Below, piece after piece: positions 8,916-36,162 of a stretch of 64,000 nt of DNA; positions within the stretch are counted from its first letter, which is position 1, and every line of letters begins with the position of its first letter. The translations under genes were made by a program, and so were the position numbers. The notes beneath the pieces are model-generated. The model was not told the origin of the DNA. It saw nothing but the letters and a program-made list of their open reading frames with translations, and searched no databases. This DNA comes from Turneriella parva DSM 21527 (GTDB lineage Bacteria > Spirochaetota > Leptospiria > Turneriellales > Turneriellaceae): NCBI RefSeq assembly GCF_000266885.1, contig NC_018020.1:2232001-2296000 (forward strand), given 5' to 3'.

Positions 8916-11900
8916 ATGCAAAATTTCATAAAACCGGTCGCTATTGCCTTTGTTCTGCTCTGCGTTCAGTGCTCTTTTCTGAAGCTAGACAAAGAGACGA
9001 ATTGTTTGAACGATAAGACGGCGTGCTTTAAAGAAGACAAGACGCGGCCGAGTTTCGTTCAAACAGTTTTGCCGGCTCCGGGAGTTGTCGTATCTACGTT
9101 GGGTGAAGTTCAGCTCATGTTTTCAGAAGAGCTGAATAACCCGCAGCCCTCAGATTTTGTCTATAGCGAGCCGGGTCTCATCGTACAATCTGTGACGAAG
9201 ATTGACAAGTTTACCTATCGCTTACTGAACAATCGTAATCCTAATCAGGGCGGGCCGCTCACGTTAAATTTCACCGGACTTAAAGATTATGCTGGTAATA
9301 GTATCACAAATGGGAGCATAACATATACCATTAATCTGAACATCCCGGTCACGCCAACCGCGACGCACACAGGTGTCAGCACAGTAGGCTACCCGACCGT
9401 TTCTGTTTCGTGGCGCTTTGCGTATACGCCGGTGCTTGCCGGCGATACGGTTTACCATGTCAGACTCACCACCGGCGCCGAAGACTGCACTGCCGGCACT
9501 CCCATTACACCGGCGACCGCGACACCTCTGGTGAATTCGGCGGTGCTAACCTACGACGAGACAAATTCGACGACTATTGCGGCAACAACTTACAACTTTA
9601 CGGTTAACACTTCTGTGATCACCACGTCGGGAGCGCAGAAAATTCTGATATGCCTGAATAACGTTAACAACAATAAATTCGGTATCGGCGTTATCAATAT
9701 CGTGCGCGACGATACACGGCCCGACGTTCTGGCTATCTCACCCGTTGGTGGCAATTATGTAGCGGCGCAGACGCTGACTTTTACCTGCAGCGACAACGTT
9801 GACAAAATTATTTATAACTACGCGAGCAATGCTGCGCAGGCTTTTGACCCTGTAGCCGGCGATGTGACCGAACCAGTTTTCAATACCAGCACTGGCGCTC
9901 TCGTGGCCGGCACAGGTTTCATCTATGATCCAGACAACAAGCCGGTGACGCCTTATTCAGATAATACAACGCGATCAATTTACAAGTACCGTTGCATCGA
10001 TAAGGCCGGTAATATAACGCCGGCAAATGCATTTGCGGCGCTAGTTTCAGGTGTATATCGAATTAACAGCACTTTCCCGACCGTATCGCTGATCAGCCTC
10101 ACGAAAACCGGTGCGAACCCCGAAGTGAATATCACAGGCGTTGGCGCAGGCGGGTACACTTCTGCCACGCTGAGGTGGAGTACGAATCAGGTCGGTCAGG
10201 CGTGGGAAATTCGTCCTGGCGGCACTGATTGCGGTGCTGGCGGCACATTTGTCGCTCAGGGCTCTGGCGGTACGGCCACACCGTCACCAGCTAACACACC
10301 CATTCTGACAGATATTTTGAATATAAGCCCAGGTATTGCTTCAGGTTTAAATAATCTACGCGTTTGCGTGAGCAACGGCTCAGAGTGGGGCCAGGCCGGC
10401 TTCACTCTGCTCAGAGACGATACGGCGCCTTCGACGCTGACAGTCAACGTACCGCCCGGTGATTATGGTACGGTTCAAAACCTGGTGTTCAGCTGTTCAG
10501 ACAATGAAGACCGCGTCATTTTTACGGAAAGCTTTTCGGCCCCAGGTGCGTCACCGGCCGACCCGGGTGACCCTCTGTTTGATGCGGATGGCCGACGCAT
10601 CACGGGTACGCTGCATACCGGGCCTCATGCCGTAACGAGTGACGATACTTCTTTGATTGGCAAGCGTACGCGCATCAAGTACCGGTGTATCGACAAGGCT
10701 GGTCATGTGACAGCCGTTAATGATGTGACTTATACTATCGACACCCTGCTGCCAACTATCACGGTGCAGAACCAAAACCACACTGCGGTCAGCGCACAGC
10801 CTGGTGCCAACGGTTTGGTGCAACTGACTTGGGTTGCCGACCGCCAGATAACCGGGTACGATATTCGCCGTGGCAGCACTAACTGCAATGATGGCACGGT
10901 GCTGACGAGCGGTACGAATCTTTCGAACGCTTCAGTTTTGGCAGCGGGAACCACGGTAACTTCTACCATCAATGCCAATTTGACGAATTTCGCTTTGGAC
11001 GAGGGGTCATATACAATTCATATCTGCACCTCGAACAGCATAGGCTCAAAAGGTTACACTTCGCGCGTGGTAAAATACGACACCACCCCACCCACCTTCG
11101 CGGGCCTGAATTCGCTCACCTCTGGCGGTAGCGGCAACTTCACACTCCAATGGTCTCTCGCCGATGATACGACTGGCTCAGGCATTGCCTATTACAACAT
11201 CTACCGCGCCGAAGCACCTGGCGGGCCTTACAACACGGTGAACCACATCGCGGCGCACCCGGCGACGAGCATCAACGTGACAGTGCCGGTGCCGACTAAC
11301 ACGTATTACTTCATTGCAGGCGCTGTTGATAACGCCGGTAACGAAACCAAAGTCACTCTCTTGCCGCTGGCAACGAAGCCGACGATTTCAGTGACGATGC
11401 TATCAGAAACCGGCAATACCAACTTTAATCTGAGCGACGGCACCGTGACGGCGCCGCTGACAGCGACGACGACGACCACAACTGCCGCCTGGTCAACGAC
11501 GCTGAGCGCAGGTTCGACTTACAACTTCAGCGTATCCAATGTGCCGGTCGGCAAAGTCTGTGCCATTAGGCAGCGGCAATATGGTACTCTAATTGCAAAT
11601 ATCACCATCACTATTGATTGCATCAACGGCTATACAGTCGCCGGGCGTTATCAGGCGATGCCGGCTGCCCCGTTAAACTTTATGCTGTATCGGGGTATAT
11701 CCTCAACTACTTATTCTGGTGCTACGTCGATCAATGGTGTCGTGAGCATTGGCAACATGATTTACTTCGTGCGCCGCGAGGGCACTAGCAATAGTTCAAT
11801 TCAGCGGTGTGACCCGACGAACTGCGCAGCGACTCTGGTGACCATCGCCAATCAAACCGCAGGCGTAATGCGCCATCTGGTCACTGATGGTGCCAACCTA

Positions 11901-14900
11901 TACGCGGCGAACCCGAATGGTAGCGCAGCAGCAATGAGGATCTATAAATACAGCGCACTGCAGACCGGCCAGGCGGCGCCTCAGGCCGAGTATAACCCCG
12001 CACTCACGAGTGGCTTTCATTCGGGGCTCGCTTTAGACGCGAACCGCAACCTGCTCTACGTCGGTCTTCGCGGCGTGGCACAAATAAAGAGGATTCACCT
12101 CGACACGGGTGTCGTGGATACGCTCAGCTCGATTGTGAGCGAACACGAGGGCATGGCACTTTTGGGCGACGATCTTTACGTCGCGACGCCGGATAACGGC
12201 AATTGCATTCTCAAGGCCACCAACGCACACACGGCAACTGCACTCACCCTCTATGCAGGTTCGTCTGGCCCGACCGAAGCCTATATAGACGGCCCGCTGC
12301 TGGCAGCTCGGTTCGCGCGCGCGCACGGCATTGTGAGCGACGGTACCGACCTCTATATCGCCGAATTTGCCGGCGCGCGCATTCGCCGCATCGACATGCG
12401 CAAAGGCATCGTCTCAACCATCGCGGGTGGTGGGGTTGCGGGCACAGACGGCACGGGCCCTGTCGCCGGCTTTGCCAATCTATTTTCGATGGCCACCGAT
12501 GGCAGAAAACTCTATGCGAGCGAGGGCGGCAGCAACCGACTGCGCGTTATTGCCGATTCTGGTCTTGTGGCCTATTGGCCGCTCGATGGTAACCTGAATG
12601 AATATGCCAGCGACGGCACGGTAACAAAGCCTGCGACCATCAATGGTGATGTGACAACAGCCCAGGGCCGTTACGGTGCGGGAAGTTCAGCTTACGCATT
12701 TGACGGCGTCGACGACTACATCAGCGTTGCGACCGGCTCTGCAGATACACACTTTAATGCGGCCAACTTTTCCGTTGCCTTCTGGGTGAGGCCGGCCGCC
12801 ACCCAGCTCGAAAGCACAGGGGCACCGCGTGATTATGATTTGGTGACAAACTGGTTCGCGGGCCAATACGATTTTTCTGTTCGCTACCATAACGAGATTT
12901 CGAGCGCGAATACGATACCACCACAAACACCAGGGCAGTTGATTTTTCTGCGCTGGGATGGCACTGTTTCACCTTATTGCATCAGCGGCATTCGCATCGA
13001 CGATGGCAATTACCATCATGTCGTCGCGCAGAAGTACGGCAGCCTGCTGGTTATGTACATCGACGGCAAAAAGGTCTGCTCTGTTGCTGATACTGTTGGC
13101 ACGATCAATCTCGCGAATGTCGGGCCAGTGCGCATCGGTGCCCGCCCGGGTACGAATGAGAACGAATTCACTGGCAACCTGTCCGATGTACGAATTTACA
13201 AACGAGCCTTAAGCGAAGGTGAGATCAACGAACTCGCGCAAGATGCCGCCGCCGCTCAGGTAGGTTCTTTTTTTAGCACCGGCGCGACCGGTTTGCTGAG
13301 TCATTACGAGTTTGCGGGCAACATCTTACCAAGTGGGCCTATCGGCGCAAGTCTGGGCAATGGACCTCTGCCTTCATTAACGACAGGTAAAGACGGTGAC
13401 CCCAACGGTGCAAAGAGATACGTTGCTGCCAGTTCACAATATCATTACAACAATGACACAACGGGGTATCCGATCGGCAATCAGGCCCGCACGCAGTGCG
13501 TGTGGGTAAACCCTGCATCTTACCCGTCAGGAAATTATTACGGAATAATACAATACGGTTCGAATTTCGCGAATGGTAAATCAGGGCTTTTCATGCGCGA
13601 AAATTCTGGTTCGCACTATCTGGTGATGCCCGGGGGCGGCAGCGACCACGAGGTTGCGTACAAGCTGCCGCTTAATGCCTGGACCCACCTCTGCGGTTCT
13701 TACGACGGAAACCTGGCGCGCCTCTATGTCAATGGAAAGGAACAAGGCACAGCCGGTGCATTCCCTTCATGGAGTACGCAGACTGGTCCTTTGGGCATCG
13801 GCAGAGACCTGACACTGACAAATTATTTTGACGGCAAAATTGATGATGTGAGGATATATAACAATACGCTTTCTGCCGCGCAGATTCGCCAGCTCGCGAC
13901 TCAGGTGCCGGCGGGTCTTATGGCACGTTATGACTTCAATGGTGATAGTGCAGACTCGAGCGGCTTCGCGAATACCTTGACAGCAACTGGTTCGACAGTG
14001 GCAGATAACGACCGGTTTTTGCAGGCGAATTCATCTTACCGCTTCAACGGCGGTAAATTTGGCACGGCGAGCCCGGTCATGACCAGCCTTGACAATGTAT
14101 CGCTGTCAGCATGGTTCAAGCAGACGACAATGCATGCGTGGTTGCAATACATTGTCATTAATGGTAGTGGTAGCAATGGCTATGGCATTTATCTCGACGG
14201 CCCGGCAGGTAACGTCGTCAGCGCGATTCTCGGCGGTATCGGATATCTGAGAACGACCGTAGCCGCCCCGTTGCACGTCTGGAACCACGTCGCCTTGGTG
14301 AGGTCAGCGGGAACCTGGAGTATATACCTGAACGGGGTTTCTCTGCCGATTAACGCGATTGCGCCGGCGACGATTACCTCGACGCCGGCATTGCCTATGG
14401 GCGGTGCCTTTATAGGGCTTGATGCAGGGGCTGGCAACTATTTTGAAGGAGCGATCGATGACGCGCGCTTTTACAATCGTGCACTGAGCGCAACCGAGAT
14501 ACGCGCGCTCGCGGGGTATCATCCGATGCAGGTGAGTACCTGGAATGCCACAGCAAACAGCAGCAGCATAAAGTTGCATTATATTCCTGAGCACCTGGGC
14601 CCGTTAGCTGATAATACCGAAATTACGCAATGGGATAATACCTCAGGTAACCCACTACACATAGTTCGGGGTGCCTTAGGCCCCTTGTATGCGCAATCGG
14701 GTATTAATGGCAGGCCAGCACTGAGTTTTACCGCGGGCCGTTACCTCACGCGAGGTTGCAATGATCTTAATCTTGGTGGTGACAACTTAACAATTATTGG
14801 TGCAATCAGCCAAACAGGCAACGGAGGTAGCAATCGAGCCCTGTATGAGTATGGCCCAAACCTTGTCTATTTGCATGATACATCATCGCAGCGCCTTGCA

Positions 14901-15257
14901 TATTTCAACACCTCTATAAGGGTCAATTCACAGGCCGATTTCATCAATTTGGTCGCACCGAATGCGAACATGATATATGCGGTTTCCAATGGTGCCTCGG
15001 GCGGTATCTATAAGAATGGAACCAATGTTACCGAGGGTGCTGCTGTCGCGAGTACCGGATCGGCCTGCGTATTCCCAAACGCCCTCTACCTAGGCAGCCG
15101 ATTTGATGGCGCAGTCGCATACGACAGCTTTCTCGGGCTATTCGGGGATGTCCTGTACTTCAATACAGTCCTGATTCCAGCCGACAGGCGCATTGCGGAG
15201 TGTTATCTGTCGTCCAAATACTCGATTCCACTTGGTCCAGGTGTGACGTGTGATTAA
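8916..15257 (+). CDS. Giant modular lipoprotein B: paralogue of A with a fourth LamG-like C-terminus
   Basis: A 2113-aa predicted lipoprotein, paralogous to the gene at 2865. The lipobox is CVQC with Cys19, followed by the same CSFLKLDKETNCLN signature. Modules: Big_5-like domain (about 45-135); Ig and chitobiase-like Cys-pair modules (150-700); FN3 (about 722-805), almost identical in DNA to the FN3 of protein A; Cys-pair beta module (811-912); NHL-like propeller (925-1212) with blades such as GTDLYIAEFAGARIRRID; LamG domains at about 1213-1445, 1458-1663 and 1665-1870; and a last LamG-like domain (1871-2113) ending AECYLSSKYSI. The last domain replaces the DUF1554-like end of protein A and matches the end of the protein at 19542. 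Probably surface exposed; ligand unknown. The 132-bp gap to protein A suggests the two can be co-transcribed. Confidence 0.88.
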   Translation: MQNFIKPVAIAFVLLCVQCSFLKLDKETNCLNDKTACFKEDKTRPSFVQTVLPAPGVVVSTLGEVQLMFSEELNNPQPSDFVYSEPGLIVQSVTKIDKFTYRLLNNRNPNQGGPLTLNFTGLKDYAGNSITNGSITYTINLNIPVTPTATHTGVSTVGYPTVSVSWRFAYTPVLAGDTVYHVRLTTGAEDCTAGTPITPATATPLVNSAVLTYDETNSTTIAATTYNFTVNTSVITTSGAQKILICLNNVNNNKFGIGVINIVRDDTRPDVLAISPVGGNYVAAQTLTFTCSDNVDKIIYNYASNAAQAFDPVAGDVTEPVFNTSTGALVAGTGFIYDPDNKPVTPYSDNTTRSIYKYRCIDKAGNITPANAFAALVSGVYRINSTFPTVSLISLTKTGANPEVNITGVGAGGYTSATLRWSTNQVGQAWEIRPGGTDCGAGGTFVAQGSGGTATPSPANTPILTDILNISPGIASGLNNLRVCVSNGSEWGQAGFTLLRDDTAPSTLTVNVPPGDYGTVQNLVFSCSDNEDRVIFTESFSAPGASPADPGDPLFDADGRRITGTLHTGPHAVTSDDTSLIGKRTRIKYRCIDKAGHVTAVNDVTYTIDTLLPTITVQNQNHTAVSAQPGANGLVQLTWVADRQITGYDIRRGSTNCNDGTVLTSGTNLSNASVLAAGTTVTSTINANLTNFALDEGSYTIHICTSNSIGSKGYTSRVVKYDTTPPTFAGLNSLTSGGSGNFTLQWSLADDTTGSGIAYYNIYRAEAPGGPYNTVNHIAAHPATSINVTVPVPTNTYYFIAGAVDNAGNETKVTLLPLATKPTISVTMLSETGNTNFNLSDGTVTAPLTATTTTTTAAWSTTLSAGSTYNFSVSNVPVGKVCAIRQRQYGTLIANITITIDCINGYTVAGRYQAMPAAPLNFMLYRGISSTTYSGATSINGVVSIGNMIYFVRREGTSNSSIQRCDPTNCAATLVTIANQTAGVMRHLVTDGANLYAANPNGSAAAMRIYKYSALQTGQAAPQAEYNPALTSGFHSGLALDANRNLLYVGLRGVAQIKRIHLDTGVVDTLSSIVSEHEGMALLGDDLYVATPDNGNCILKATNAHTATALTLYAGSSGPTEAYIDGPLLAARFARAHGIVSDGTDLYIAEFAGARIRRIDMRKGIVSTIAGGGVAGTDGTGPVAGFANLFSMATDGRKLYASEGGSNRLRVIADSGLVAYWPLDGNLNEYASDGTVTKPATINGDVTTAQGRYGAGSSAYAFDGVDDYISVATGSADTHFNAANFSVAFWVRPAATQLESTGAPRDYDLVTNWFAGQYDFSVRYHNEISSANTIPPQTPGQLIFLRWDGTVSPYCISGIRIDDGNYHHVVAQKYGSLLVMYIDGKKVCSVADTVGTINLANVGPVRIGARPGTNENEFTGNLSDVRIYKRALSEGEINELAQDAAAAQVGSFFSTGATGLLSHYEFAGNILPSGPIGASLGNGPLPSLTTGKDGDPNGAKRYVAASSQYHYNNDTTGYPIGNQARTQCVWVNPASYPSGNYYGIIQYGSNFANGKSGLFMRENSGSHYLVMPGGGSDHEVAYKLPLNAWTHLCGSYDGNLARLYVNGKEQGTAGAFPSWSTQTGPLGIGRDLTLTNYFDGKIDDVRIYNNTLSAAQIRQLATQVPAGLMARYDFNGDSADSSGFANTLTATGSTVADNDRFLQANSSYRFNGGKFGTASPVMTSLDNVSLSAWFKQTTMHAWLQYIVINGSGSNGYGIYLDGPAGNVVSAILGGIGYLRTTVAAPLHVWNHVALVRSAGTWSIYLNGVSLPINAIAPATITSTPALPMGGAFIGLDAGAGNYFEGAIDDARFYNRALSATEIRALAGYHPMQVSTWNATANSSSIKLHYIPEHLGPLADNTEITQWDNTSGNPLHIVRGALGPLYAQSGINGRPALSFTAGRYLTRGCNDLNLGGDNLTIIGAISQTGNGGSNRALYEYGPNLVYLHDTSSQRLAYFNTSIRVNSQADFINLVAPNANMIYAVSNGASGGIYKNGTNVTEGAAVASTGSACVFPNALYLGSRFDGAVAYDSFLGLFGDVLYFNTVLIPADRRIAECYLSSKYSIPLGPGVTCD

Positions 15258-19360: not shown

Positions 19361-19541
19361 AAATTACGATTCGTATTGCCCTGAGGTGAACAGGTTCTAA
19401 ACGGGAAAATCTGCCCGGCAAATAGAGTTTCACGCACCACCGACAAAATACCCCAATGCGTATCAAGCGTTTCACCCCGCCCCGATAAACGCTGTACGCC
19501 CTTGTGCGCCGCGCCAGAATTTGCCCGAGATTGGCATTGGT

Positions 19542-22500
19542 ATGCTGAACCCAGAGCGAACAACACCGCTTCGCGTTGAAGCGACTCGAATCGTCGCCGC
19601 GCTTTTTCTTGTCTTTTCAACCGTATCTTGCTCGTTTCTGAAGCTCGATAAAAACACCAATTGTCTGAACGAAAGCGCGGGTTGCTTCAAGGCTGATAAC
19701 ACGGCACCCGAGTATCGGTCGTCGACGCCCATCGCAAACGCTTTGGTCTCGCGGCTCACCACACTCACAGTTGTTTTTTCCGAAGAACTCAAAGACCCGA
19801 AGCCAGCTGATGTAAAGATTACGGGGGGTGGCAAAGGTCAACTGACTCTGTCTTCGATTACCAAGACTGCAGCGAACACCTATACGCTTTCCTTCTCGCC
19901 GGATACAGTTTCGACAGGGCCTATTCTCATTGACTTTACGGATTTGGTAGACTACAATAATAATAAGGTCAACTATTCACTCGCGCTCACCGGCAATGTA
20001 GACATAGAAATCGAATTTGATGACAACAGGACCGGAACGAATCCGGGTTATCGCAAAGGTGTGTCGGACGGCGGCGGCTACACAACAACCGACATTAAGT
20101 GGAGGCATGCCTATCAAACTGATCCGAACAATAACTGGGATATGCGCGTTACAACAGGCGCGGTTGATTGTGCTGCTGGTACTTCAATATTCACAGGGAC
20201 TGGACTCGCGGATGCAACGGATGTGTTGCGCACACTCGACAGGCAAACGCATTTCCCTGCCGGCCCAGGTAGGTATCGCGTTGTGGTTTGCATTACCAAT
20301 GCCGCCATGAATAAAAAAGGCACTAATTCTGTTGAAATTATCAGGGACGACACACCCCCGACAGCAATTCATTCTCCCGTTTCAGACGACTACAACACCA
20401 CCAAGACCATGACGGTCGCGTGTTCGGACAATGATGATAAAATTGCCATTCAGCAGGCGCAGTTATCACCTTGGGATGGCAATCTCGTGAATCCGGCGAA
20501 TCCGGCTGACCCTGACTTTGATGCGAGCGGCGCTGTTTCGGTTGGCACATTGCTGACGGCTGGTTATCCGATCAATAATCCTACGAACCCGACGCGCACC
20601 AAAGTTAAGTACCGCTGCCTCGATATTGCTGGCAACAAGAGTCTCGTCGGCATGGCGACGTACCTTGTCGACACGACGCTACCAGAGGTGGCTGTCAATC
20701 TCGACACCAGCTTCAGGCAATTTGTTTCGGTGACCGGTTATACTACCACCACTCTCAATTTTACCACAAATCAATCCAACACAACATACCGCATTGTGAA
20801 GAATGCCACGAGCTGCGCTGCGGTTGACGGTGATGAGCTTAGCACAGGCAGCACCACACCGCCTCCAGGCCCCATTGTCATTAATGCCTCGGCGCTCGAT
20901 GTCGGGGTGAACAACATTCGCGTGTGCGTTTCGAATGTGGGAGCCACCAAATGGGGCGCCGCTTCGCTGCAGATTACTCGTGATGATACTGTCCCGTTTG
21001 TCACGCCGAGTGTCACCACCGGCACATATGGCGCTGTACAGGTTGTGAATCTTACCTGTTCGCCGAATGCCGACAAAGTAGCAATTACCGACGCGGTGCT
21101 TGCCGGTAGCACGCCACCCACGCCACCTTCAGACCCCAATATTGACGCCAATGGCATCATTTTGTTGGGTAAACAGCAAGACCAATTTATAACCCCCGAT
21201 GCTTCTGTTTCTACAATCAAATGGCAGTGCATCACCAAGTCGGGCAATCGCTCGGTGGTCGACGGCACAACTACGGCAACCTATACAGTCGATGCAATTT
21301 TGCCGACCGTGACGATTATCGGCAACACGCGTAATTTCGTGAGCAATCTGGTGGGAGCTCATAATTTCACGAACCTGACATTCCAGGTGAGCCGGCCGGG
21401 CCTCAACTACGAGATTAAAAGCGGTAGCACCAACTGCAGCGGCGGTACAACACTTGCCACTGGCACAGTTGCAACAGCCGGGCAGGATATTACTGTGCGA
21501 CTCAACACTCCATTTGCTGGCCCGCCGAACCATTTTGGTGCGGTCGGCAGTTATGACCTGAAAATATGTGTACCCAATTTTATCGGCGCGCTTGGGTATT
21601 CCACATCGTCTCTTCTTGTCCAGCGCGAAGACAGCCGGCCCAACACGGTCGCAAATGTCACCGTGACTAGTGCAACTTCAACCTCCGTTACGCTCGGCTG
21701 GGATACGACCACCGATGTCGGCCCAGCAGGCATCGCTGGTTACCGCATTCTTCAAACCACAACCCAGGGGAATTATTCGTCACCCACGACGTATACCTCC
21801 AACACGAATTCAGTGAACATATCTGGGTTAAATCCTACTATCACCTATTACTTTGTGGTGCGGGCTGTTGATAGCGCAGGCAATGTTGCTATAACTGACA
21901 GCAATGAGGTACAATCGCGGCTCGCGCTCTCCGTGACCGTCGCTGGTTACAGTAGCGCGCTGAACGGACCCTTTCGGGTGCAACTCGGTTCTGGAGAAAT
22001 TCTTTCATTCACAGCCAACGGGACACAAACGTTCTCGCAAGTTTTTCTAAGCGGCGATACCTATGCATTGCCGATCATCGCCCAACCCGCAACACAGAAC
22101 TGTGCGTTCGCGGGCAACCAATATGGGACCATGAATGCAAGTCTGGCGCTGAGCGTCACCTGCGTCTCAGGCTACACGAGCGGCGGGTCGCTCATTGCAA
22201 ACAAACCGGCGCCGCTGAACTACCTGCTCTACCGGGGCAATGCGCAGATCATTGCCGGCGGTGGTGCCGGCACGAGTTGCGGGTCGACCTGCAATGATGG
22301 TACGGGTACCAACGCGCGGTTTAGCAATCCGTATGGTATGGCGATGGTGAACGGTTTTCTCTATATTGCCGACCGTGAAAACCACCGCATTCGCCGCATC
22401 GACACGACAGTAACCCCTGCAAGCACCACGACATTTGCCGGTAGCGGTACCGACCTCACCAGCGATGGTACGGGCACTGGTGCGTCGTTTAATGCACCGC

Positions 22501-25500
22501 AGGCGATAACCACTGACGGAGTGAATCTCTATGTAGTTGAGTCGCCTGCCGCAGGTCAGGGACACCTGCGCAAGATTCATATTGCAACCGGGCAGGTGAC
22601 GACGCTTGCTGGCGGCGGTACGCAGTCTGGCGGCACCAATTGTCCGGTGACTTTTCAAGGTGGTTGTATCGATGGCAGAGGTGCGCAGGTGGCGTTTGGC
22701 GGTGCGAATGGAATCGTATATCACGACGGCTATCTGTACATCACCGAATATACCAATAACCGGGTTCGTCGCATGAACCTTGCAACGGGCGTGGTCGACA
22801 CGATTGCCGGCGATGGCCAGCCCCAATCAGCGACGAGCACGACGGGCACTAACGCGCAGTTCAATGGTGCTACGGGCGCGGCCGTTGCCGGTGGTGTGCT
22901 CTATGTTGCGGATTTTAACGGTCACCGAATTCGCGCCGTGAGTCTGACAGCTCCCTTCGCCGTCACGGCAGTTGCCGGCACTGGCGACCCGGGCCATGCC
23001 GACGGGCCTTTGGCCACCGCGCGATTTTATAATCCTGATCACCTCACCACCGACGGTTTTAACCTGTTCGTGACTGAGTACTCAGGCGACGGCAACACAG
23101 GCCGCAGGCTGCGGCGCATCGATCTGCGTAAAGGCCGCGTATCGACCATCGCTGGGAACAGCATTGCTGCCGACACGAGTGGCACGGGTGTCGCAGCTTC
23201 ATTCTATTCACCGGTCGGCATCGCCTCTGACGGCCGGCAGCTTTTCGTGGGCACTTACGATGGTGGCCGAATCTTTCGTGTCACCGACTCGGGGTTGGTG
23301 GGGTATTGGCCGCTTCACGGTGCGGTGAACGACTATGCAAGCGACGTCGCAACTCCGCAAGACGGAACCATTCAAGATTCAGATACCATTGCCAACTTGC
23401 TGCCGACTACCGGCCGTTACGGTGAGAGTAGCGGAGCATATGTTTTCGACGGCAACAACGATGTGATTTCAGCCAGTGCAACGAACTTGCCTGTGGGCAA
23501 TAGCACGCGCACGCTCTGCGCATGGGTCAAGTTCAACGGTCCTCAGAGCGGCAATGACGGTGTCGTAGGCTACGGTCGGCGCGGGGTAGATGATAATGGG
23601 TTTGGGCTAGCTGTTGAGAATGGCCTCGATATGAAGATATTCGTTCACACCAACGATGTAGCTTTCAACAGACCGGTGGAAAATGACATATGGAGTCATG
23701 CATGCATACTTCGGGATTCTTCAACTGGTGAGTTGCGAAGTTATGTCAATGGCAGGCTCATCACACTAAAAAGCGGTAGTCTGAGCACGCCGGTCAGCAG
23801 TAAACTCTGCATTGGCTCGCGCTTGAATAATGTTGTCACTAGCTGTAGCGCGGATTTCTTCTTCGCAGGTTCGGTCGCCGACGTGCGCCTTTACAACCGC
23901 GCGCTCAACGAAGGTGAGATTAACGAACTGGCTCAAGATGCGACCGATAATACCGCCGTGACCGGCACGAGCTACAATACCGGCCCGACAGGCCTCTTGG
24001 CGCACTACCCAATGACTCCGACAGCGCCGCTGCAGGGCGAAGGGCCGCTCGGGGGCGCACTGACGATCAGCGCAGGCACACCCGCGCTGCGTGTTGGAAA
24101 AGACGGCGACACGAGTGGAGCATTCGGTTATTCAGGGGTGGCTGCTCATAGCGCCAGCGGGGCGGGTTTACCCCTTGGCACAAGCCCCCGTACTGTTTGC
24201 GCCTGGGTGAAGCCATATAACTACCCATCAGACGGAAACCGCAAAGACATATTGCGCTTTGGATCGGGGGTAAACGGAAACTTCGGACTCATAATGTATA
24301 ATGCGTCCGGATCGCAGCGAGTGGGCATAGTAACGGTCGGCAACGATTTTATCGATGCGCAGTATGCACTGCCTCTTAATGCCTGGTCGCATCTTTGTGC
24401 TAACCTCACGGCAAGCGGCGGCGCCGAAGTCTACGTCAACGCGCTACGCGTTGGCAATTTAGCGAGTCTGGGCACGTCAACCGGGTCTGGCGGCTTATTG
24501 ATCGGTGGTGATGGTGTTACCGTTGACGATGTGCGCATCTACAACAACGCACTGTCGTCACCACAGGTGCGCCAACTCGCGACGCAGGTACCCGCAGGTT
24601 TAGTATTTCGCATGGACACCGTTGGCGATGCAAACGATGCAAGCGGCCATAATCACGCACTCGTATCAAACACCGGAGCACTTGCGGCTGGGCGGCATGG
24701 CGTGGCGAATACGGCTTACCGCTTCACGAGCGGTCAGCTCGCGACGTACGCACACAATACGACACTGAATACACCCAATATGACCTGGTCGTTCTGGATG
24801 AAATCACCGAGCATGACGGGCGGTGATTTGAATACGAGCATAATCCGCAAATTTCAGACATTCAATGCCGACGGCTGGGTTGTGAAATATGACCACATCA
24901 ACTACCTTCACAATTACAAGGCTTCGAGCAATATAATGAGCGCCCACGAATCATTTGTCAACAATGTCTGGACGCATTATACGGTTGTGCGTTCGGCAAA
25001 TGGGGCTAGTGACAGTATTTACATCAATGGTCAGGCAGCAGCTAATACCACAGGTTTGGGGTCAAATATTGTCAACACGGCACAGATGCTGATTGGCGCG
25101 AATGGCATGGGCGATATTACTCTGCAAGATGTTCGCATTTACAATCGCGTGCTTGATCAGGCTGAAGTGCAGGCGCTCTCGGGATATCACCCAGACCATG
25201 GCGTCGCTGGCATGGTCTTTCACGTGCAGGCCGACAATTATTCGCACCTTGCCGATGGTGCGCTAATTACCACAAACTGGCAAGATTCAACGATCAATGA
25301 CCGGTATACGCTAACGGGGGGCGTACCCACCGGCTCGCCCAAATTTGTGAGCGGCTCTTCGAGCCTACTGGGCAAAAAGCCCGCGATCGAGTTCGACGGT
25401 GTCGATGGCAAATATTTTGACTTTGGCAATACTTCGGTCACCTATAACGGACTGACCGTCTGCGCGGCCTTGACGCGTAGGGGCCTGGGCTTTCGGGGGC

Positions 25501-25910
25501 TCGTTGAAAAACGGGGTGGGTTTCAGGCAAATAGCTGGGGCATGATTACAGAAAATGCCGCGAATGCGATGAAGTTCGAAATTGGCGATCCGCCGGGTGC
25601 AAACGTTGTCGATACGGTAACCGACGATTCTCCGTCGATCTATTGCATGGTAAACGGGGCTGGCAATGCCATTCAGACTTTTGTGAATGGACAACTGGCT
25701 TCGACAGTTGGCGGTTCAACCCTGATCGGCTCAAACACCCGACCGCTGCTCGTGGGCGCGCGGTACGACTATGCCGGCTCGTATCATGGGCAGATTGGTG
25801 ACATCGTCATCGCGGTGAAAGACGCCTCGACAGCCGAACGGCGCGTTACCGAGTGCTATCTCTCGTCGAAGTATTCAATACCCTTGACGGCGGGAGCGGT
25901 TTGCCCTTAG
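19542..25910 (+). CDS. Giant modular lipoprotein C: third paralogue with NHL propeller and four LamG-like domains
   Basis: About 2122 aa from the ATG at 19542; a TTG at 19521 is an alternative start. A hydrophobic signal segment ends at STVSC (Cys30), followed by the shared signature CSFLKLDKNTNCLN. Modules: Big_5-like domain (FSEELKDPKPADV); Ig and chitobiase-like Cys-pair modules to about 700; FN3 near 21640-21900; Cys-pair beta module (21930-22170); NHL-like propeller (22240-23285) with blades such as GFLYIADRENHRIRRID; three LamG domains (about 23289-23945, 23990-24590, 24596-25190); and a fourth LamG-like end (25200-25910) closing TECYLSSKYSI. Compared with proteins A and B its DNA is clearly more diverged, so it is the older copy. 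It is convergent with the penicillin-acylase-family gene, with only 14 bp between stops. Likely a surface binding protein; ligand unknown. Confidence 0.87.
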   Translation: MLNPERTTPLRVEATRIVAALFLVFSTVSCSFLKLDKNTNCLNESAGCFKADNTAPEYRSSTPIANALVSRLTTLTVVFSEELKDPKPADVKITGGGKGQLTLSSITKTAANTYTLSFSPDTVSTGPILIDFTDLVDYNNNKVNYSLALTGNVDIEIEFDDNRTGTNPGYRKGVSDGGGYTTTDIKWRHAYQTDPNNNWDMRVTTGAVDCAAGTSIFTGTGLADATDVLRTLDRQTHFPAGPGRYRVVVCITNAAMNKKGTNSVEIIRDDTPPTAIHSPVSDDYNTTKTMTVACSDNDDKIAIQQAQLSPWDGNLVNPANPADPDFDASGAVSVGTLLTAGYPINNPTNPTRTKVKYRCLDIAGNKSLVGMATYLVDTTLPEVAVNLDTSFRQFVSVTGYTTTTLNFTTNQSNTTYRIVKNATSCAAVDGDELSTGSTTPPPGPIVINASALDVGVNNIRVCVSNVGATKWGAASLQITRDDTVPFVTPSVTTGTYGAVQVVNLTCSPNADKVAITDAVLAGSTPPTPPSDPNIDANGIILLGKQQDQFITPDASVSTIKWQCITKSGNRSVVDGTTTATYTVDAILPTVTIIGNTRNFVSNLVGAHNFTNLTFQVSRPGLNYEIKSGSTNCSGGTTLATGTVATAGQDITVRLNTPFAGPPNHFGAVGSYDLKICVPNFIGALGYSTSSLLVQREDSRPNTVANVTVTSATSTSVTLGWDTTTDVGPAGIAGYRILQTTTQGNYSSPTTYTSNTNSVNISGLNPTITYYFVVRAVDSAGNVAITDSNEVQSRLALSVTVAGYSSALNGPFRVQLGSGEILSFTANGTQTFSQVFLSGDTYALPIIAQPATQNCAFAGNQYGTMNASLALSVTCVSGYTSGGSLIANKPAPLNYLLYRGNAQIIAGGGAGTSCGSTCNDGTGTNARFSNPYGMAMVNGFLYIADRENHRIRRIDTTVTPASTTTFAGSGTDLTSDGTGTGASFNAPQAITTDGVNLYVVESPAAGQGHLRKIHIATGQVTTLAGGGTQSGGTNCPVTFQGGCIDGRGAQVAFGGANGIVYHDGYLYITEYTNNRVRRMNLATGVVDTIAGDGQPQSATSTTGTNAQFNGATGAAVAGGVLYVADFNGHRIRAVSLTAPFAVTAVAGTGDPGHADGPLATARFYNPDHLTTDGFNLFVTEYSGDGNTGRRLRRIDLRKGRVSTIAGNSIAADTSGTGVAASFYSPVGIASDGRQLFVGTYDGGRIFRVTDSGLVGYWPLHGAVNDYASDVATPQDGTIQDSDTIANLLPTTGRYGESSGAYVFDGNNDVISASATNLPVGNSTRTLCAWVKFNGPQSGNDGVVGYGRRGVDDNGFGLAVENGLDMKIFVHTNDVAFNRPVENDIWSHACILRDSSTGELRSYVNGRLITLKSGSLSTPVSSKLCIGSRLNNVVTSCSADFFFAGSVADVRLYNRALNEGEINELAQDATDNTAVTGTSYNTGPTGLLAHYPMTPTAPLQGEGPLGGALTISAGTPALRVGKDGDTSGAFGYSGVAAHSASGAGLPLGTSPRTVCAWVKPYNYPSDGNRKDILRFGSGVNGNFGLIMYNASGSQRVGIVTVGNDFIDAQYALPLNAWSHLCANLTASGGAEVYVNALRVGNLASLGTSTGSGGLLIGGDGVTVDDVRIYNNALSSPQVRQLATQVPAGLVFRMDTVGDANDASGHNHALVSNTGALAAGRHGVANTAYRFTSGQLATYAHNTTLNTPNMTWSFWMKSPSMTGGDLNTSIIRKFQTFNADGWVVKYDHINYLHNYKASSNIMSAHESFVNNVWTHYTVVRSANGASDSIYINGQAAANTTGLGSNIVNTAQMLIGANGMGDITLQDVRIYNRVLDQAEVQALSGYHPDHGVAGMVFHVQADNYSHLADGALITTNWQDSTINDRYTLTGGVPTGSPKFVSGSSSLLGKKPAIEFDGVDGKYFDFGNTSVTYNGLTVCAALTRRGLGFRGLVEKRGGFQANSWGMITENAANAMKFEIGDPPGANVVDTVTDDSPSIYCMVNGAGNAIQTFVNGQLASTVGGSTLIGSNTRPLLVGARYDYAGSYHGQIGDIVIAVKDASTAERRVTECYLSSKYSIPLTAGAVCP

Positions 25911-31739: not shown

Positions 31740-33017
31740 CTATTTGACACTCGCCTCTATCTCGCCCTTTGCCAGCCGCACACGAATATCGGTACCACTC
31801 TTGAGCGTCGTCGCATCTGTCACGATCTTGTCACCGCTATAGACAACAGAATAACCGCGCTTGAGCGTCGCGAGCGGCGAGTAGGCTTCGAATCGGCCGG
31901 CAGTCGATTCAAATTCGGCGCGCGTGAGCTTGATTTTTTGCGCGGCCAGCACTTCAAGTGGCGTCAGCCGGTTAAGCGCGTTGGCGTGGCTGTTGACGAT
32001 GTTGCGAAAGGTGAAGTTGAGTTTTGATTCGAGCTCGTCGAGAAAATGCGCCTGGTCTTTTACGAGCACGTAAGGTTTTTCCCAGAATTCTTTTGTCGAC
32101 GTGCGCAAGAATCTCTCTTGAAAGAGCTGTAACTTTGCTTCGACGGCGGCAAATGCGCGTTTGAGGTGATTTTCGGCTTTGTACTGCAGGTCTTCAATCA
32201 CGGGAAAGACGGCTCTGGCTGCATCGGTCGGCGTCGCTGCGGCGTAATCGGCGACGTCGTCAGAGATTGGGTGGTCAATCTGGTGGCCGACGGCCGATAC
32301 AACAGCAATGCGGCACGTCGCAATCGCCCGGCAAACTGCCTCGTCGTTAAAGGCCATGAGGTCTTCTGCCGAACCGCCGCCGCGCCCGACGATCACGACA
32401 TCGCAGCGCCATTCCTTTTTTTGAATCTCACTGAGTGCGGCGACAATCGATTGCGGTGCGGCTTCTCCCTGAACCTGCGCGGGCGCGAGCACGATTTCGG
32501 CATGCGGATACCGTTCTTGTACCTGTTTCAGTATGTCACGGTAAGCCGCTGTGCCTGCGCCGGTGACAATGCCGACACGACGGGGCAGCGGCGGCAGTTC
32601 GCGGCGGGTTTCTGGTGTCTTGATTAATCCTTCTTTGAGAAGGCGCTCGCGAATCTGTTGCAATTTTTGCAGCAGGTCACCCGCGCCGATTTTCTGTACG
32701 CGCTTCACTGTGAAGCTGTAAGTTGATTGTGGTGCGTAGATGCCAGTCGTGCCGAGAATTTCGACCTCGAGGCCCATCTTGAGTTCGAAGTCGAGCGGTG
32801 TCTGCGCAAAGCGAAAGTAAGTGCAGCGAATCGTTGGCCGTGGGTTCTGGTTTTTTTGCGAAGAGTCAGAGAGCGTCATGTAGATGTGCCCAGACGAGGC
32901 ATGTTTCTGATAAGAGGTAATCTCGCCTTTTATCCAGACGTCTTGCAGCTCGGGTGAACTCTTGATTTTGGTCTCGATGACCCTGCAGATTTCGGCGACG
33001 GTGTATTGCTGCGGCAC
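31740..33017 (-). CDS. xseA: Exodeoxyribonuclease VII large subunit
   Basis: A 425-aa protein of the usual XseA length. It has an N-terminal OB-fold nucleic-acid binding domain (about 1-110; YTVAEICRVIETKIKSSPEL, then VWIKGEI) and the catalytic domain with RVGIVTGAGTAAYRDIL (family consensus is IGVITSPTGAAIRDIL), DVVIVGRGGGSAEDLMAFND and AVVSAVGHQIDHPISDDVAD. It then has a coiled-coil region and a C-terminal strand with TLKRGYSVV. With XseB it degrades single-stranded DNA in repair. No xseB candidate lies next to it in this window. It diverges from the kinase-phosphatase fusion at 33073; the 55-bp gap holds a palindrome. Confidence 0.96.
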   Translation of the reverse strand: MPQQYTVAEICRVIETKIKSSPELQDVWIKGEITSYQKHASSGHIYMTLSDSSQKNQNPRPTIRCTYFRFAQTPLDFELKMGLEVEILGTTGIYAPQSTYSFTVKRVQKIGAGDLLQKLQQIRERLLKEGLIKTPETRRELPPLPRRVGIVTGAGTAAYRDILKQVQERYPHAEIVLAPAQVQGEAAPQSIVAALSEIQKKEWRCDVVIVGRGGGSAEDLMAFNDEAVCRAIATCRIAVVSAVGHQIDHPISDDVADYAAATPTDAARAVFPVIEDLQYKAENHLKRAFAAVEAKLQLFQERFLRTSTKEFWEKPYVLVKDQAHFLDELESKLNFTFRNIVNSHANALNRLTPLEVLAAQKIKLTRAEFESTAGRFEAYSPLATLKRGYSVVYSGDKIVTDATTLKSGTDIRVRLAKGEIEASVK

Positions 33018-33031
33018 GGGAGTCGCGCAGC

Positions 33032-33066
33032 AGTTGCAAATTGACGCAGCCCGTCAATTTGCAACT
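33032..33066. promoter_or_regulatory. Perfect 15-bp palindrome in the xseA/fusion divergent region
   Basis: Arms 33032-33046 and 33052-33066 are perfectly complementary over a 5-nt loop. It fills most of the 55-bp gap between two divergent starts. The right arm ends within CTGGAGTTATG, directly beside the Shine-Dalgarno of the fusion gene, so as RNA it could limit its translation, and as DNA it could be an operator for both genes. Confidence 0.6.
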
Positions 33067-33072
33067 GGAGTT

Positions 33073-35409
33073 ATGGCCTCTATCCTCATTACGCAATGTT
33101 TGCAGAATGACTTCGTGCGTCTGCTCGATAAGTACGACCCGCTGCCCAACTACCTGCACATCGGTTATGACGAGGCGATGCGTCTGCTCGGCGAGCGCGC
33201 AGAAGAGGGGCCGGTTGCGCAGATTATTCGCTGGGCGTACGAGCAGAGCGAAGACGCGCTGAAGATCATTCATATTCGCGACTGGCACAGCGCTGATGAC
33301 AGTGAACAGCAGAGTCACCTCGAGCAATTTGGCCGCCACTGCCTGGCGAACAGTGAAGGTGCGGATTTCGTATTTACTCGCCAGCTGCCCGCTGCTCATG
33401 CACGCCGCCCTGACATCGTGGTCAACGCTTCAGGGCTCAATGACTTTTACAAAACAGACCTTGCTGAACACCTGACCGAAGCCGGGCAGGGTGAGTCGCT
33501 GCGCATCGGCCTTATCGGCGTCTGGACTGAGGCGAAGATTACCTATCTCGCGTACGAGCTTGTGACGCGTTACCCCAAAATTGAGCTCGTCACGTGCAGC
33601 GCGCTGACGGCGAGCTCTGCGCGCAGCCAGCACTTTATTGCTCTCGATCATCTGAAGCGCATTCTGGGAGTGAAGGTGTTCGACTCGGTTGCGAGCTTCG
33701 CCGAATACCTGGGCGGCACAGGACATGGTTTAACCGCCTCGGCGTATGCCGAGAACCGCCAGCTCGATGCCGCAAAGTTTACGTTCAATATTCCATACGA
33801 TCTCAAAGAAGCCGATGCAAAAATTCTGCACTACCTGTTTCGTGACAGCAAGTCAGCCGACTTCATCTGCCTCGACGGCGGTTTCAGCGGCAACGTGGTG
33901 TTAAAGGCCGAGTCGCGCGATATCTACGGGCAGAAGCAGCAGCCGACCGTCGTCAAGATCGGGCAGCGCGACCCGATTTCGCGCGAGCGTGCCTCATTCG
34001 AGCGCATTCAAGAGGTGCTGGGCAACAGCGCGCCGGCGGTTGTCGACTTCGCCGAATTTGGCGAGCGCGGCGGTATCAAATACCGCTATGCAGCGATGAC
34101 CGACGGCAAGGTAAAAAATTTTCAGAAAGTTTTCGCTGAGAGCAGCGACCTTGAGCAGCTGAAAAAATATCTGCACATTGTCTTTCGCCGGCAGCTCGGC
34201 CGCTTCTACGAGGCTGCCGTACAAGAAAATCTCAATCTGCTCGATTATTACGACTTTAAGCCCAAGTACGCCGATTCGGTGAGGCGCAAATGCGCCGAAC
34301 TCGCAGAGTTTACCTCAGACCGAAAGCTAAAATTAGCTGACGGCATTGAGGTTGAAGACGTATCGAAATTCTACGCAGAAGACTTACTGCATCTGCGCGA
34401 AACGGTCGCGATGCCGCGCTATGTTTCGTGGCTGCACGGCGACCTCAATGGGGCGAACATTATTATCGATGAATCGCAAAACGTGTGGCTCATTGATTTT
34501 TTTCACACGCACCGTGGTCATGCACTCAAAGACCTGATAAAACTCGAGAATGACATTCTTTACATTTTCACGAAAATTAATTCGGCAGACGATCTGCGCC
34601 TTGCCTGTCGCGCAACCGATTGGCTGTTCGAAGTGCACGACCTTGCAGTCGCACCAGATGAACCACCCGCAGAGCTTGCGGCCGATGCGCGTTTTGCGAA
34701 ATCGCTCGCCATCATCGGATATCTGCGATCACTCTACCGCGACATCATTGACCTGGACCGCGATCCGTACCAGTTCTTTGTCGCTGCTGCGCGCTATGCA
34801 ATGCATACGCTTTCTTTTGATGAATGTAATCTTTGGCAGCGCAAGTGGGCGCTCTACGCAGGGGCAATGGCGATTGGCCGGGTGCGGGACGCCCTGACGA
34901 AGAGCGCGAGACTTCGCATCGACTTTATGACAACGACAGGTGAGGCTTCGCCAGAAGGATCTATCGGCCTCACGATTCTGCCCGGCCGTAAAGACCGCGG
35001 CCGCGACCTTGCCGAAGATATTGCCGCCATAAAATCTGCCGGCGTCACTGCGGTGGTCACATTGCTCAGCCATGCCGAGTTTGCCGAGTATGGGGTTGCC
35101 AACCTCTTGGACGCATACCGTGACGCAGGTCTCGAGGTGTTGCACCGCGCGGTGAAAGACCAGGGTGTACCGACCGCCGAGCAGGCAGAGCAGGCGCTGC
35201 AATTTTTGAAGCAAACCACTGACGCCGATAAGAAAGTTCTGATTCACTGCGTCGGTGGCCTCGGCCGCACGGGACTTATCGCCGCGCTCTTTCTGCGCCG
35301 GTACGCGGGCCTTGACGGCGATGAAGCGATGCGCAGGGTGCGGGCTGCCCGATCGCCCCGCGCGATCGAAAACACCGATCAGGAAAACTATGTCAAAAAC
35401 TGGAAATAG
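33073..35409 (+). CDS. Three-domain fusion: inactive isochorismatase-like, APH-like kinase and dual-specificity phosphatase
   Basis: A 778-aa cytoplasmic protein. The start at 33073 is chosen because GGAG stands 4 nt upstream; an open frame continues further upstream but lies inside xseA. Domain 1 (about 1-215) has the isochorismatase/cysteine-hydrolase pattern (LITQCLQNDF, HIRDWHS, LIGVWTEAKITYLAYEL), but the catalytic Asp position of the IDxQNDF motif is Cys and the nucleophile Cys after GV is missing, so it is probably non-catalytic. Domain 2 (about 260-600) is an aminoglycoside-phosphotransferase/kinase fold: PTVVKIG (ATP-binding Lys), HGDLNGANI (His455-Asp457, catalytic loop) and WLIDFFHTHRGHALKDL (metal-binding Asp). 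Domain 3 (about 620-778) is a CDKN3-like dual-specificity phosphatase: LPGRKDRGRDL, general acid in AVKDQGVP and HCVGGLGRTG with Cys726. A kinase and phosphatase on one chain suggests a reversible phosphorylation switch; its substrate is unknown. Confidence 0.8.
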   Translation: MASILITQCLQNDFVRLLDKYDPLPNYLHIGYDEAMRLLGERAEEGPVAQIIRWAYEQSEDALKIIHIRDWHSADDSEQQSHLEQFGRHCLANSEGADFVFTRQLPAAHARRPDIVVNASGLNDFYKTDLAEHLTEAGQGESLRIGLIGVWTEAKITYLAYELVTRYPKIELVTCSALTASSARSQHFIALDHLKRILGVKVFDSVASFAEYLGGTGHGLTASAYAENRQLDAAKFTFNIPYDLKEADAKILHYLFRDSKSADFICLDGGFSGNVVLKAESRDIYGQKQQPTVVKIGQRDPISRERASFERIQEVLGNSAPAVVDFAEFGERGGIKYRYAAMTDGKVKNFQKVFAESSDLEQLKKYLHIVFRRQLGRFYEAAVQENLNLLDYYDFKPKYADSVRRKCAELAEFTSDRKLKLADGIEVEDVSKFYAEDLLHLRETVAMPRYVSWLHGDLNGANIIIDESQNVWLIDFFHTHRGHALKDLIKLENDILYIFTKINSADDLRLACRATDWLFEVHDLAVAPDEPPAELAADARFAKSLAIIGYLRSLYRDIIDLDRDPYQFFVAAARYAMHTLSFDECNLWQRKWALYAGAMAIGRVRDALTKSARLRIDFMTTTGEASPEGSIGLTILPGRKDRGRDLAEDIAAIKSAGVTAVVTLLSHAEFAEYGVANLLDAYRDAGLEVLHRAVKDQGVPTAEQAEQALQFLKQTTDADKKVLIHCVGGLGRTGLIAALFLRRYAGLDGDEAMRRVRAARSPRAIENTDQENYVKNWK

Positions 35410-35412
35410 CGA

Positions 35413-36162
35413 TTATTGCGGTTCGTCTGCCACCACGTGGCAATAGCGGCAGCGCGCTTCGTAGATGCTCTCGGGAAATTCCCTTGGTTTTTCGGCGAAT
35501 AGTTTGTTTTGCGTCAGTTCTTGCGAAGTGCCGACGGTGACCACCTCGGTAAAGAACGATGCGGGTTTATAGATTGGTTTGCCTTCACTATTAACTGAAC
35601 TCAGCGTGAGTTTCTGGCTGTGGTGCGCATCTTGACCGCAAACAACGCAGATCGCGGCGAGTTTCAGCGACTCGTGCGCAATCGCGAGGTATTCGCCGAC
35701 ATTGCGCGAGCCCGACTCTGACCCCGGCGCCGGTGCAATCGGGAAAGGCAGGCGGCGGTAATCTTGGTCGAGCAGCGATAGAATGACGTCGATGCCCTGG
35801 CGTGAAAAGCGGCGCACGAGGTCGATCAGCGAATCGTCGAGAAACTGCGCCTCTTCAATCGCGGCGATGTCGGTGTCGTTCTTTAAAAGGGCCGCAATTT
35901 CGCGCGGGTGCGACACCACGTGTGCCGCTTCACCGACCTGCACGCTTTCGTCCGCTGCCTGTGCGAGAAAGTGGGGCAGAACCTGCGTTGCATGGTAGCG
36001 GTTGTCGATGGCTGGTTTGAAGAGTTGAACCTTTTTGCGCGCAATCTTGGCGCGCCGAACCCGCCGCAGCAGTTCTTCGGTTTTGCCCGAAAACATCGGC
36101 CCGTGAATCACAGAAATTTTCCCCACCGCAGGTTTGTTCTGATCTGGCTGCAACGTTTTCAT
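35413..36162 (-). CDS. tdk: Thymidine kinase (type II)
   Basis: A 249-aa enzyme that phosphorylates thymidine for salvage into dTMP. The P-loop is GPMFSGKT (21-28). Walker B with the catalytic Glu reads AIEEAQFLDD, where most family members have DEAQF; the Glu is kept. The lasso follows as LLDQDYRRLPF and the two zinc Cys pairs are CVVC and CRYC near the C-terminus. Length is slightly above the usual 190-200 aa because of inserts after the lasso (PAPGSESGSRN) and an extended N-terminus. It is the last gene of the cdsA-dxr-proB-tdk operon; its ATG overlaps the proB stop by 4 bp. It converges with the kinase-phosphatase fusion with only 3 bp between the stops. Confidence 0.93.
   Translation of the reverse strand: MKTLQPDQNKPAVGKISVIHGPMFSGKTEELLRRVRRAKIARKKVQLFKPAIDNRYHATQVLPHFLAQAADESVQVGEAAHVVSHPREIAALLKNDTDIAAIEEAQFLDDSLIDLVRRFSRQGIDVILSLLDQDYRRLPFPIAPAPGSESGSRNVGEYLAIAHESLKLAAICVVCGQDAHHSQKLTLSSVNSEGKPIYKPASFFTEVVTVGTSQELTQNKLFAEKPREFPESIYEARCRYCHVVADEPQ

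Follow-up and report, generated by a model that had tools for sequence, protein, structure and literature searches.

A widespread bacterial protein family joining a predicted inactive nicotinamidase-like domain, a TCAD9 kinase and a CDKN3-like phosphatase on one chain, and its probable link to NAD

The 64,000-nucleotide stretch of Turneriella parva DSM 21527 analysed here (NC_018020.1, positions 2,232,001 to 2,296,000, hereafter the window) carries a gene whose single reading frame combines hydrolase-like, kinase-like and phosphatase-like domains, which raises the question of what these three domains would do on one chain. The gene starts with an ATG preceded by GGAG and lies between a divergent xseA (31740-33017) and a convergent tdk (35413-36162), so that no NAD gene adjoins it at its own locus. 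The original prediction, made by reading the sequence, had described a cysteine-hydrolase fold deprived of its catalytic residues followed by an APH-like kinase and a CDKN3-like phosphatase, and this layout was borne out by Pfam, whereby the Isochorismatase (PF00857), TCAD9 (PF19974) and CDKN3 (PF05706) profiles were matched in that order along the 778 residues. The Pfam phosphatase models Tc-R-P, PTP-SAK and PTP-NADK also scored above their cutoffs. NCBIfam searches gave no named family above its cutoff for the whole protein, and a PADLOC search gave zero matches. Features are collected in the table, in which conservation is counted over the ungapped rows of an alignment of 82 proteins. Elsewhere in the window, three very large paralogous proteins of 1972, 2113 and 2129 residues are clustered (2865-8783, 8916-15257 and 19521-25910).

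Table. Features of the three-domain gene and its upstream region (window coordinates).
Feature	Position	Strand	Basis
Inverted repeat, perfect, 16 nt; arms 33031-33046 and 33052-33067, 5-nt loop	33031..33067		Between xseA and the gene
CDS, 778 aa: pseudo-nicotinamidase, TCAD9/APH-like kinase, CDKN3-like phosphatase	33073..35409	+	ORF, Pfam, full-length conservation
Domain 1, isochorismatase/nicotinamidase fold, predicted catalytically dead, residues 1-215	33073..33717	+	PF00857; AlphaFold2 pLDDT 94.5; PDB fold matches
C9, position of catalytic Asp (PhPncA D10)	33097..33099	+	Motif comparison TQCLQNDF; C in 75/78 rows
D70 and H72, positions of PncA metal ligands D52/H54	33280..33288	+	Gap-free alignment; kept in 76/80 and 77/80 rows
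H82, invariant His, possible extra metal ligand (putative role)	33316..33318	+	79/80 rows
H89, position of PncA metal ligand H71	33337..33339	+	79/79 rows
A119 (A/S in family), position of catalytic Lys (PhPncA K94)	33427..33429	+	Profile alignment
K155, position of nucleophilic Cys (PhPncA C133)	33535..33537	+	GVWTEAKV vs GVATEYCV; K in 80/81 rows
Domain 2, TCAD9 kinase, APH/choline-kinase-like fold, about residues 245-600	33805..34872	+	PF19974; AlphaFold2 pLDDT 92.2; fold matches
K295, ATP-site Lys (PTVVKIG)	33955..33957	+	81/81 rows
HGDLNGANI catalytic loop (H455, D457, N462)	34435..34461	+	H, D, N in 81/81 rows
D475, metal-binding Asp of IDF motif	34495..34497	+	81/81 rows
Domain 3, CDKN3-like dual-specificity/rhodanese-phosphatase superfamily, residues 619-778	34927..35406	+	PF05706 1e-16, PF22785 2e-15, PF22784 3e-12
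D696, general-acid Asp	35158..35160	+	72/72 rows having the position
HCVGGLGR P-loop (C726, R732)	35245..35268	+	C 72/72, R 70/70 rows

The isochorismatase-like nature of domain 1, which the original prediction had left to profile searches, was established by a PF00857 score of 28.7 bits, just above the cutoff of 27, and by a predicted structure with a nicotinamidase fold. The best PDB matches of this model were 3hb7 and the nicotinamidases 3o93, 5zn8 and 3s2s of Streptococcus pneumoniae (SpNic), Bacillus subtilis and S. mutans respectively, with Foldseek E values of 1.6e-12 to 3hb7 and 3.1e-12 to SpNic. A profile of 66 copies of the domain was then aligned to the Pyrococcus nicotinamidase (1ilw/1im5) without gaps across the metal site, so that D52, H54 and H71 of PhPncA correspond to D70, H72 and H89. 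The roles of the reference residues are taken from PMC3025910. The loss of the catalytic Asp and Cys claimed earlier is seen at C9 and K155, and the catalytic Lys is gone as well, its position being taken by Ala or Ser (A119 in the window protein, in a register placed by hand using the shorter loop of 3hb7). With the Asp-Lys-Cys triad replaced in this way, hydrolysis by the known nicotinamidase mechanism is excluded on sequence grounds.

Although the triad is lost, the pocket loops are nearly invariant across phyla, and C9, N123, D124, W151 and K155 are near-invariant at the former active site, C9 giving way to Ser or Thr in three members. In nicotinamidase, the N1 of nicotinamide coordinates the metal (PMC6271260), and the metal site that would hold it appears to be kept in domain 1. 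Three Bacteroidota members (L090, L093 and L120, L numbers denoting loci) have lost D70 and two of them H72 also; metal binding is therefore not universal in the family. A PF00857 search of the whole window genome matched domain 1 and nothing else, and thus found no canonical nicotinamidase there; NCBIfam searches with the 66 copies of the domain gave nothing meaningful.

Domain 2 matched the TCAD9 profile with 183.9 bits against a cutoff of 40 (E 8e-54). K295, E305, H455, D457, N462 and D475 are invariant in all ungapped rows. The closest folds to its structural model were maltokinase 4u94 at the top, ethanolamine kinase 2qg7, choline kinase and APH(3'), at TM-scores of about 0.33-0.47 normalised to the query, and a sequence search of the PDB returned weak GCN2 matches alone, around the catalytic loop. 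On the strength of the model, domain 2 is a predicted kinase of a distant small-molecule-kinase fold. For domain 3, the closest solved sequences were ShufPTP (9e9l) and human CDKN3 (1fpz), and the HCxxGxxR loop and general-acid Asp of CDKN3-like phosphatases are both present, making it a predicted phosphatase with intact catalytic residues. The HGDLNGANI, IDF and HCVGGLGRTG motifs are thus intact as first read, with Asp457 and Cys726 correctly numbered. Among plasmid sequences, the best relative of domain 3 is a phosphatase-ARG fusion (ARG, ADP-ribosylglycohydrolase) whose operon also contains AAA, WYL, nuclease and helicase genes. Another stand-alone CDKN3-like phosphatase (L147:7956-8459) lies between arsH and an ArsJ-associated GAPDH gene in an arsenic operon of a Pseudomonas aeruginosa plasmid, which means that this phosphatase by itself is no proof of a role in NAD metabolism.

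It was of interest to establish how far the three-domain frame is conserved, since a sequencing error joining separate genes had been named as an outcome that would undo the prediction. The full frame was found in 25 further spirochaete genomes: a search of 60 spirochaete relatives gave 22 other genomes with a full-length single frame at 48-77% identity, as well as one (G041) with the gene split across two contigs, and a phylum-wide draw added three more carriers. Conserved peptides were sought in 84,980 species genomes, which yielded 131 relatives, and the best 80 of these, which were fetched, come from about a dozen phyla, including Bacteroidota, Pseudomonadota, Myxococcota, Nitrospinota, Acidobacteriota, Verrucomicrobiota, Planctomycetota, Elusimicrobiota and Sericytochromatia. 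Most are metagenome-assembled genomes (MAGs); the isolates include Eudoraea adriatica, Hyunsoonleella aestuarii, Pleionea and Dasania. All three domains stand in a single frame at 67 of the 80 loci and in order in a broken frame at three. Three gammaproteobacterial loci (L121, L125 and L132) have the phosphatase as a gene of its own directly upstream, at L133 it lies about 5 kb from the isochorismatase-kinase gene, and at six loci the phosphatase domain is missing. On plasmids and phages the search returned matches to the phosphatase domain only and none to the full-length fusion.

The separate phosphatase genes and the few frameshifted loci are what an artefact, that is three genes fused by sequencing error or a chance open reading frame, would have in its favour; against it, the same frame recurs intact in many phyla and independently assembled genomes, at about 46-77% identity, so that such an origin is refuted by conservation and is hardly credible. 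Consequently, the three-domain protein is a widespread bacterial family. In a tree built by a quick method, its members group partly by phylum with several phyla mixed, a pattern compatible with transfer, the assignment of MAG bins being uncertain. The MAG titles at L076, L085 and L114 ('Borreliella garinii', 'Bordetella parapertussis') look like those of mislabelled environmental bins.

The original prediction had also proposed that kinase and phosphatase add and remove the same phosphate. Both enzymes are intact in the window protein, but the six relatives that lack the phosphatase, in whose genomes no other phosphatase of the same type was found, weaken the idea of an obligate pairing, and the two activities need not share a phosphate. 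A further suggestion was a tie to DNA damage through xseA and a shared palindrome. The palindrome is real: it abuts the ribosome-binding site, folds as a strong RNA hairpin (z -4.3) and could serve as an operator or a translational hairpin. It is absent, however, upstream of all three close relatives checked, and different loci have different upstream genes, leaving the DNA-damage link unsupported. Neither xseA nor the palindrome was retained as a functional partner, and the palindrome is outside the conserved system. Its reading as a genome-wide repeat was rejected too, there being no second copy in the genome except one single-arm near match.

Gene neighbourhoods were surveyed at 82 non-redundant loci, none of the neighbouring genes being a universal partner. 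An NAD or ADP-ribose gene lies within about 6-7 kb of the family gene at eight of them, where the gene families are NADK-like (6), SPFH (5) and nadV (3). A nadM-Nudix gene is found at L082, L121 and L133, NrtR or NrtR-like Nudix proteins at L067, L087, L115 and L121, and an ARG gene at L082 and L121 only among the loci examined. At L082 a macrodomain gene stands directly upstream with the ARG and nadM-Nudix genes close by; at L121 (Pleionea) ARG is followed by KptA, phosphatase and isochorismatase-kinase; at L133 nadM, nadV, SPFH and NADK-like genes run together with the stand-alone phosphatase; and at L067 a PRPP-synthetase-like gene is near. Small proteins of 128-145 residues encoded near Bacteroidota members (L090:8340-8726, L093:7315-7707, L100:8288-8725 and L120:9741-10133) all matched Pfam AvrPphF-ORF-2, a family with an ADP-ribosyltransferase-like fold, weakly and below its cutoff.

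Among these neighbours, the NADK-like gene was examined for chance linkage. Of 50 genomes that carry the family, 16 have a strong NADK-like homologue, and in six of the 16 it is no more than about 7 kb from the family gene, against 0.04 expected (Poisson P about 1e-11); this partner was chosen post hoc, and the significance survives correction for a thousand gene families. The linkage spans Proteobacteria, Bacteroidota and Spirochaetota. Across 61 spirochaete genomes, 21 have both genes, 34 have neither and six are discordant, three each way (Fisher p 2.7e-10, in a test that ignores phylogeny), five of these six being less than 90% complete. As the two genes are mostly unlinked in spirochaetes, this co-occurrence is evidence separate from the linkage. 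In the window genome itself, a divergent NADK-like gene adjoins an SPFH gene at about 1.794 Mb (L135:7859-9926); the same two are found together in many phyla, in some cases with NrtR. NrtR is absent from spirochaetes, for which reason its regulating the window gene was rejected. The NADK-like protein scores far below the NCBIfam and Pfam NAD-kinase cutoffs. The gene context thus points to NAD and ADP-ribose, a refinement of the original prediction, and the link of the family to NAD is the best-supported step of our reading and a probable one.

We therefore put forward, as a tentative proposal with a somewhat less than even chance of being right, that a sensor of nicotinamide or pyridine nucleotides controls a kinase and a phosphatase acting on a metabolite derived from NAD or ADP-ribose. 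Domain 1 would descend from a nicotinamidase, having lost the hydrolytic triad and kept the site where a metal binds the pyridine nitrogen, and since that site is kept and the triad lost, it would bind but not cleave its ligand, either nicotinamide itself or a pyridine nucleotide by its nicotinamide end; for nicotinamide-type binding as such the chances are close to balanced, leaning slightly against. The earlier guess of a dead hydrolase acting as a small-molecule sensor is thereby judged likely and narrowed to a nicotinamidase-like pocket with a putative metal site. Domain 1 would report the state of NAD turnover to both enzymes on the chain, the TCAD9 kinase phosphorylating and the CDKN3-like phosphatase dephosphorylating a small molecule derived from NAD or ADP-ribose, or its conjugate. 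A small molecule is mildly favoured over a protein as substrate. The fusion protein would work with the NADK-like/SPFH pair and, in some lineages, with ARG, macrodomain, KptA, NadV/NadM or a MoxR-vWA chaperone set. Its ligand, substrate, direction of control and any defence role are what we infer; the family probably links a phosphorylation switch to how NAD metabolism stands.

The gene neighbourhoods also supply the case for a switch directed at proteins, in which kinase and phosphatase would act on a MoxR-like AAA ATPase, a vWA or a STAS neighbour with domain 1 as sensor or scaffold. A MoxR-like AAA gene is present at 11 of the 82 loci, and genes for a 338-residue orphan and for an HExxH Zn-peptidase/vWA protein at 10 each, most of them on the strand of the family gene and 22-317 nt downstream of it; MoxR-type AAA genes are thus commoner than NAD or ADP-ribose genes, most of the loci having neither. 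Strong vWA copies occur in 14 of the 50 genomes and adjoin the family gene in 10 of these, where 0.04 would be expected, other MoxR- or ChlI-like genes adjoin it at eight further spirochaete loci, and SpoIIE-phosphatase and STAS genes lie just upstream in Bacteroidota. CDKN3, moreover, is itself a protein phosphatase. On the other hand, the closest folds to the kinase are those of maltokinase, choline/ethanolamine kinase and APH, the partner set varies by lineage, no MoxR or vWA gene stands beside the window gene and the window genome lacks the specific vWA protein, so that we regard a protein-directed switch as rather unlikely. The 338-residue orphan, encoded between the MoxR-like and HExxH/vWA genes (L130:9944-10960, L119:4731-5738), matched neither Pfam nor NCBIfam. 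A same-cluster aldehyde dehydrogenase was seen at five loci of Bacteroidota, Verrucomicrobia and Elusimicrobia (L058, L071, L088, L105 and L113), directly downstream of the family gene at L071, L088 and L105.

Two further explanations retain the small molecule and dispense with the sensor or with NAD. A trifunctional enzyme, whose domains carry out successive steps of NAD or ADP-ribose processing with new chemistry from C9, K155, N123 and D124, would account for the near-invariance of these residues and W151, for the retained metal site and for the window genome having no other PF00857 protein; yet Cys and Lys at swapped positions have no known precedent, C9 is Ser or Thr in three members, and any turnover is putative, making this quite improbable. 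Little better are the prospects of an ordinary sugar or osmolyte kinase/phosphatase, its NAD and MoxR neighbours being there because genomic islands collect mobile genes: the patchy spread over phyla with mixed clades, the unrelated neighbours at most loci and maltokinase as top fold match would suit it, but the NADK-like/SPFH partner is shared by three phyla and accompanies the family even in genomes where it is unlinked, and domain 1 derives from a nicotinamidase, leaving this reading improbable too.

The sensor acting on an NAD- or ADP-ribose-derived metabolite is accordingly the reading we prefer. A bolder version of it holds that the protein is a self-contained NAD sensor, in which the dead nicotinamidase reads nicotinamide and switches the fused kinase and phosphatase, so that a phosphorylated ADP-ribose or NAD signal is made or erased and feeds NAD repair or a MoxR-vWA defence machine; we consider this version unlikely as a whole. 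Nicotinamide, the shared product of NAD consumption, would in that case be the cue, since ADP-ribosylation, immune NADases and other consumers of NAD all set it free. Through the MoxR-vWA and ARG contexts, the protein may also have a direct part in defence. Few bacterial proteins are known to sense nicotinamide directly; if the preferred reading is true, this conserved pseudo-nicotinamidase with kinase and phosphatase is a concrete candidate for one, and the TCAD9 kinase of predicted conflict systems gains a testable class of metabolic substrates.

Taken together, the comparison with known systems separates what the family shares from what it adds. The TCAD9 kinase family (Pfam) and the phosphatase-ARG systems are already known, and no description of the three-domain protein, of a dead nicotinamidase with a kept metal site or of the NADK-like/SPFH association was found in the open-licence literature, in which matches for 'TCAD9' are mostly unrelated. 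The name stands for 'Ternary complex associated domain 9' (PMC10910872). With the MoxR-vWA ternary systems of Kaur et al. 2020 (PMC7159879) the family shares this kinase domain and, in some relatives, the MoxR and vWA genes, in keeping with the possible link to conflict systems that the original prediction had raised and to which the ADP-ribose genes of other relatives add; that paper does not mention isochorismatase, has no 'TCAD' in its main text and describes neither the pseudo-nicotinamidase/phosphatase fusion nor the NAD linkage. The ARG-centred systems of Iyer et al. 2022 (PMC9503650), with rhodanese-phosphatase, NrtR-like Nudix regulator, macrodomain and vWA chaperone, include the same phosphatase superfamily, have ARG, macrodomain, Nudix regulator or vWA genes in common with some relatives, and accommodate the plasmid phosphatase-ARG fusion operon; unlike the family, they come with no mention of an APH/TCAD9 kinase or an isochorismatase, and no ARG gene is coupled to the phosphatase at the window locus. 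Domain 1 resembles PncA (PhPncA 1im5, SpNic 3o93, BsPncA 5zn8) in its fold, in the metal ligands D-x-H...H and in the HC..(T/S).GA.F and G(V/A).TE motifs, and differs in having all three catalytic residues replaced and a kinase and phosphatase fused on. Domain 3 has the HC.GGLGR loop and general-acid Asp of CDKN3 (KAP, 1fpz; E 4e-16), but is bacterial, fused and found in an NAD/ADP-ribose gene context. PTP-NADK (PF22741; 29.8 bits against a 27-bit cutoff) likewise combines this phosphatase superfamily with an NAD-pathway kinase, whereas in the present family the on-chain kinase is APH-like and the NADK-like protein is encoded by a separate gene.
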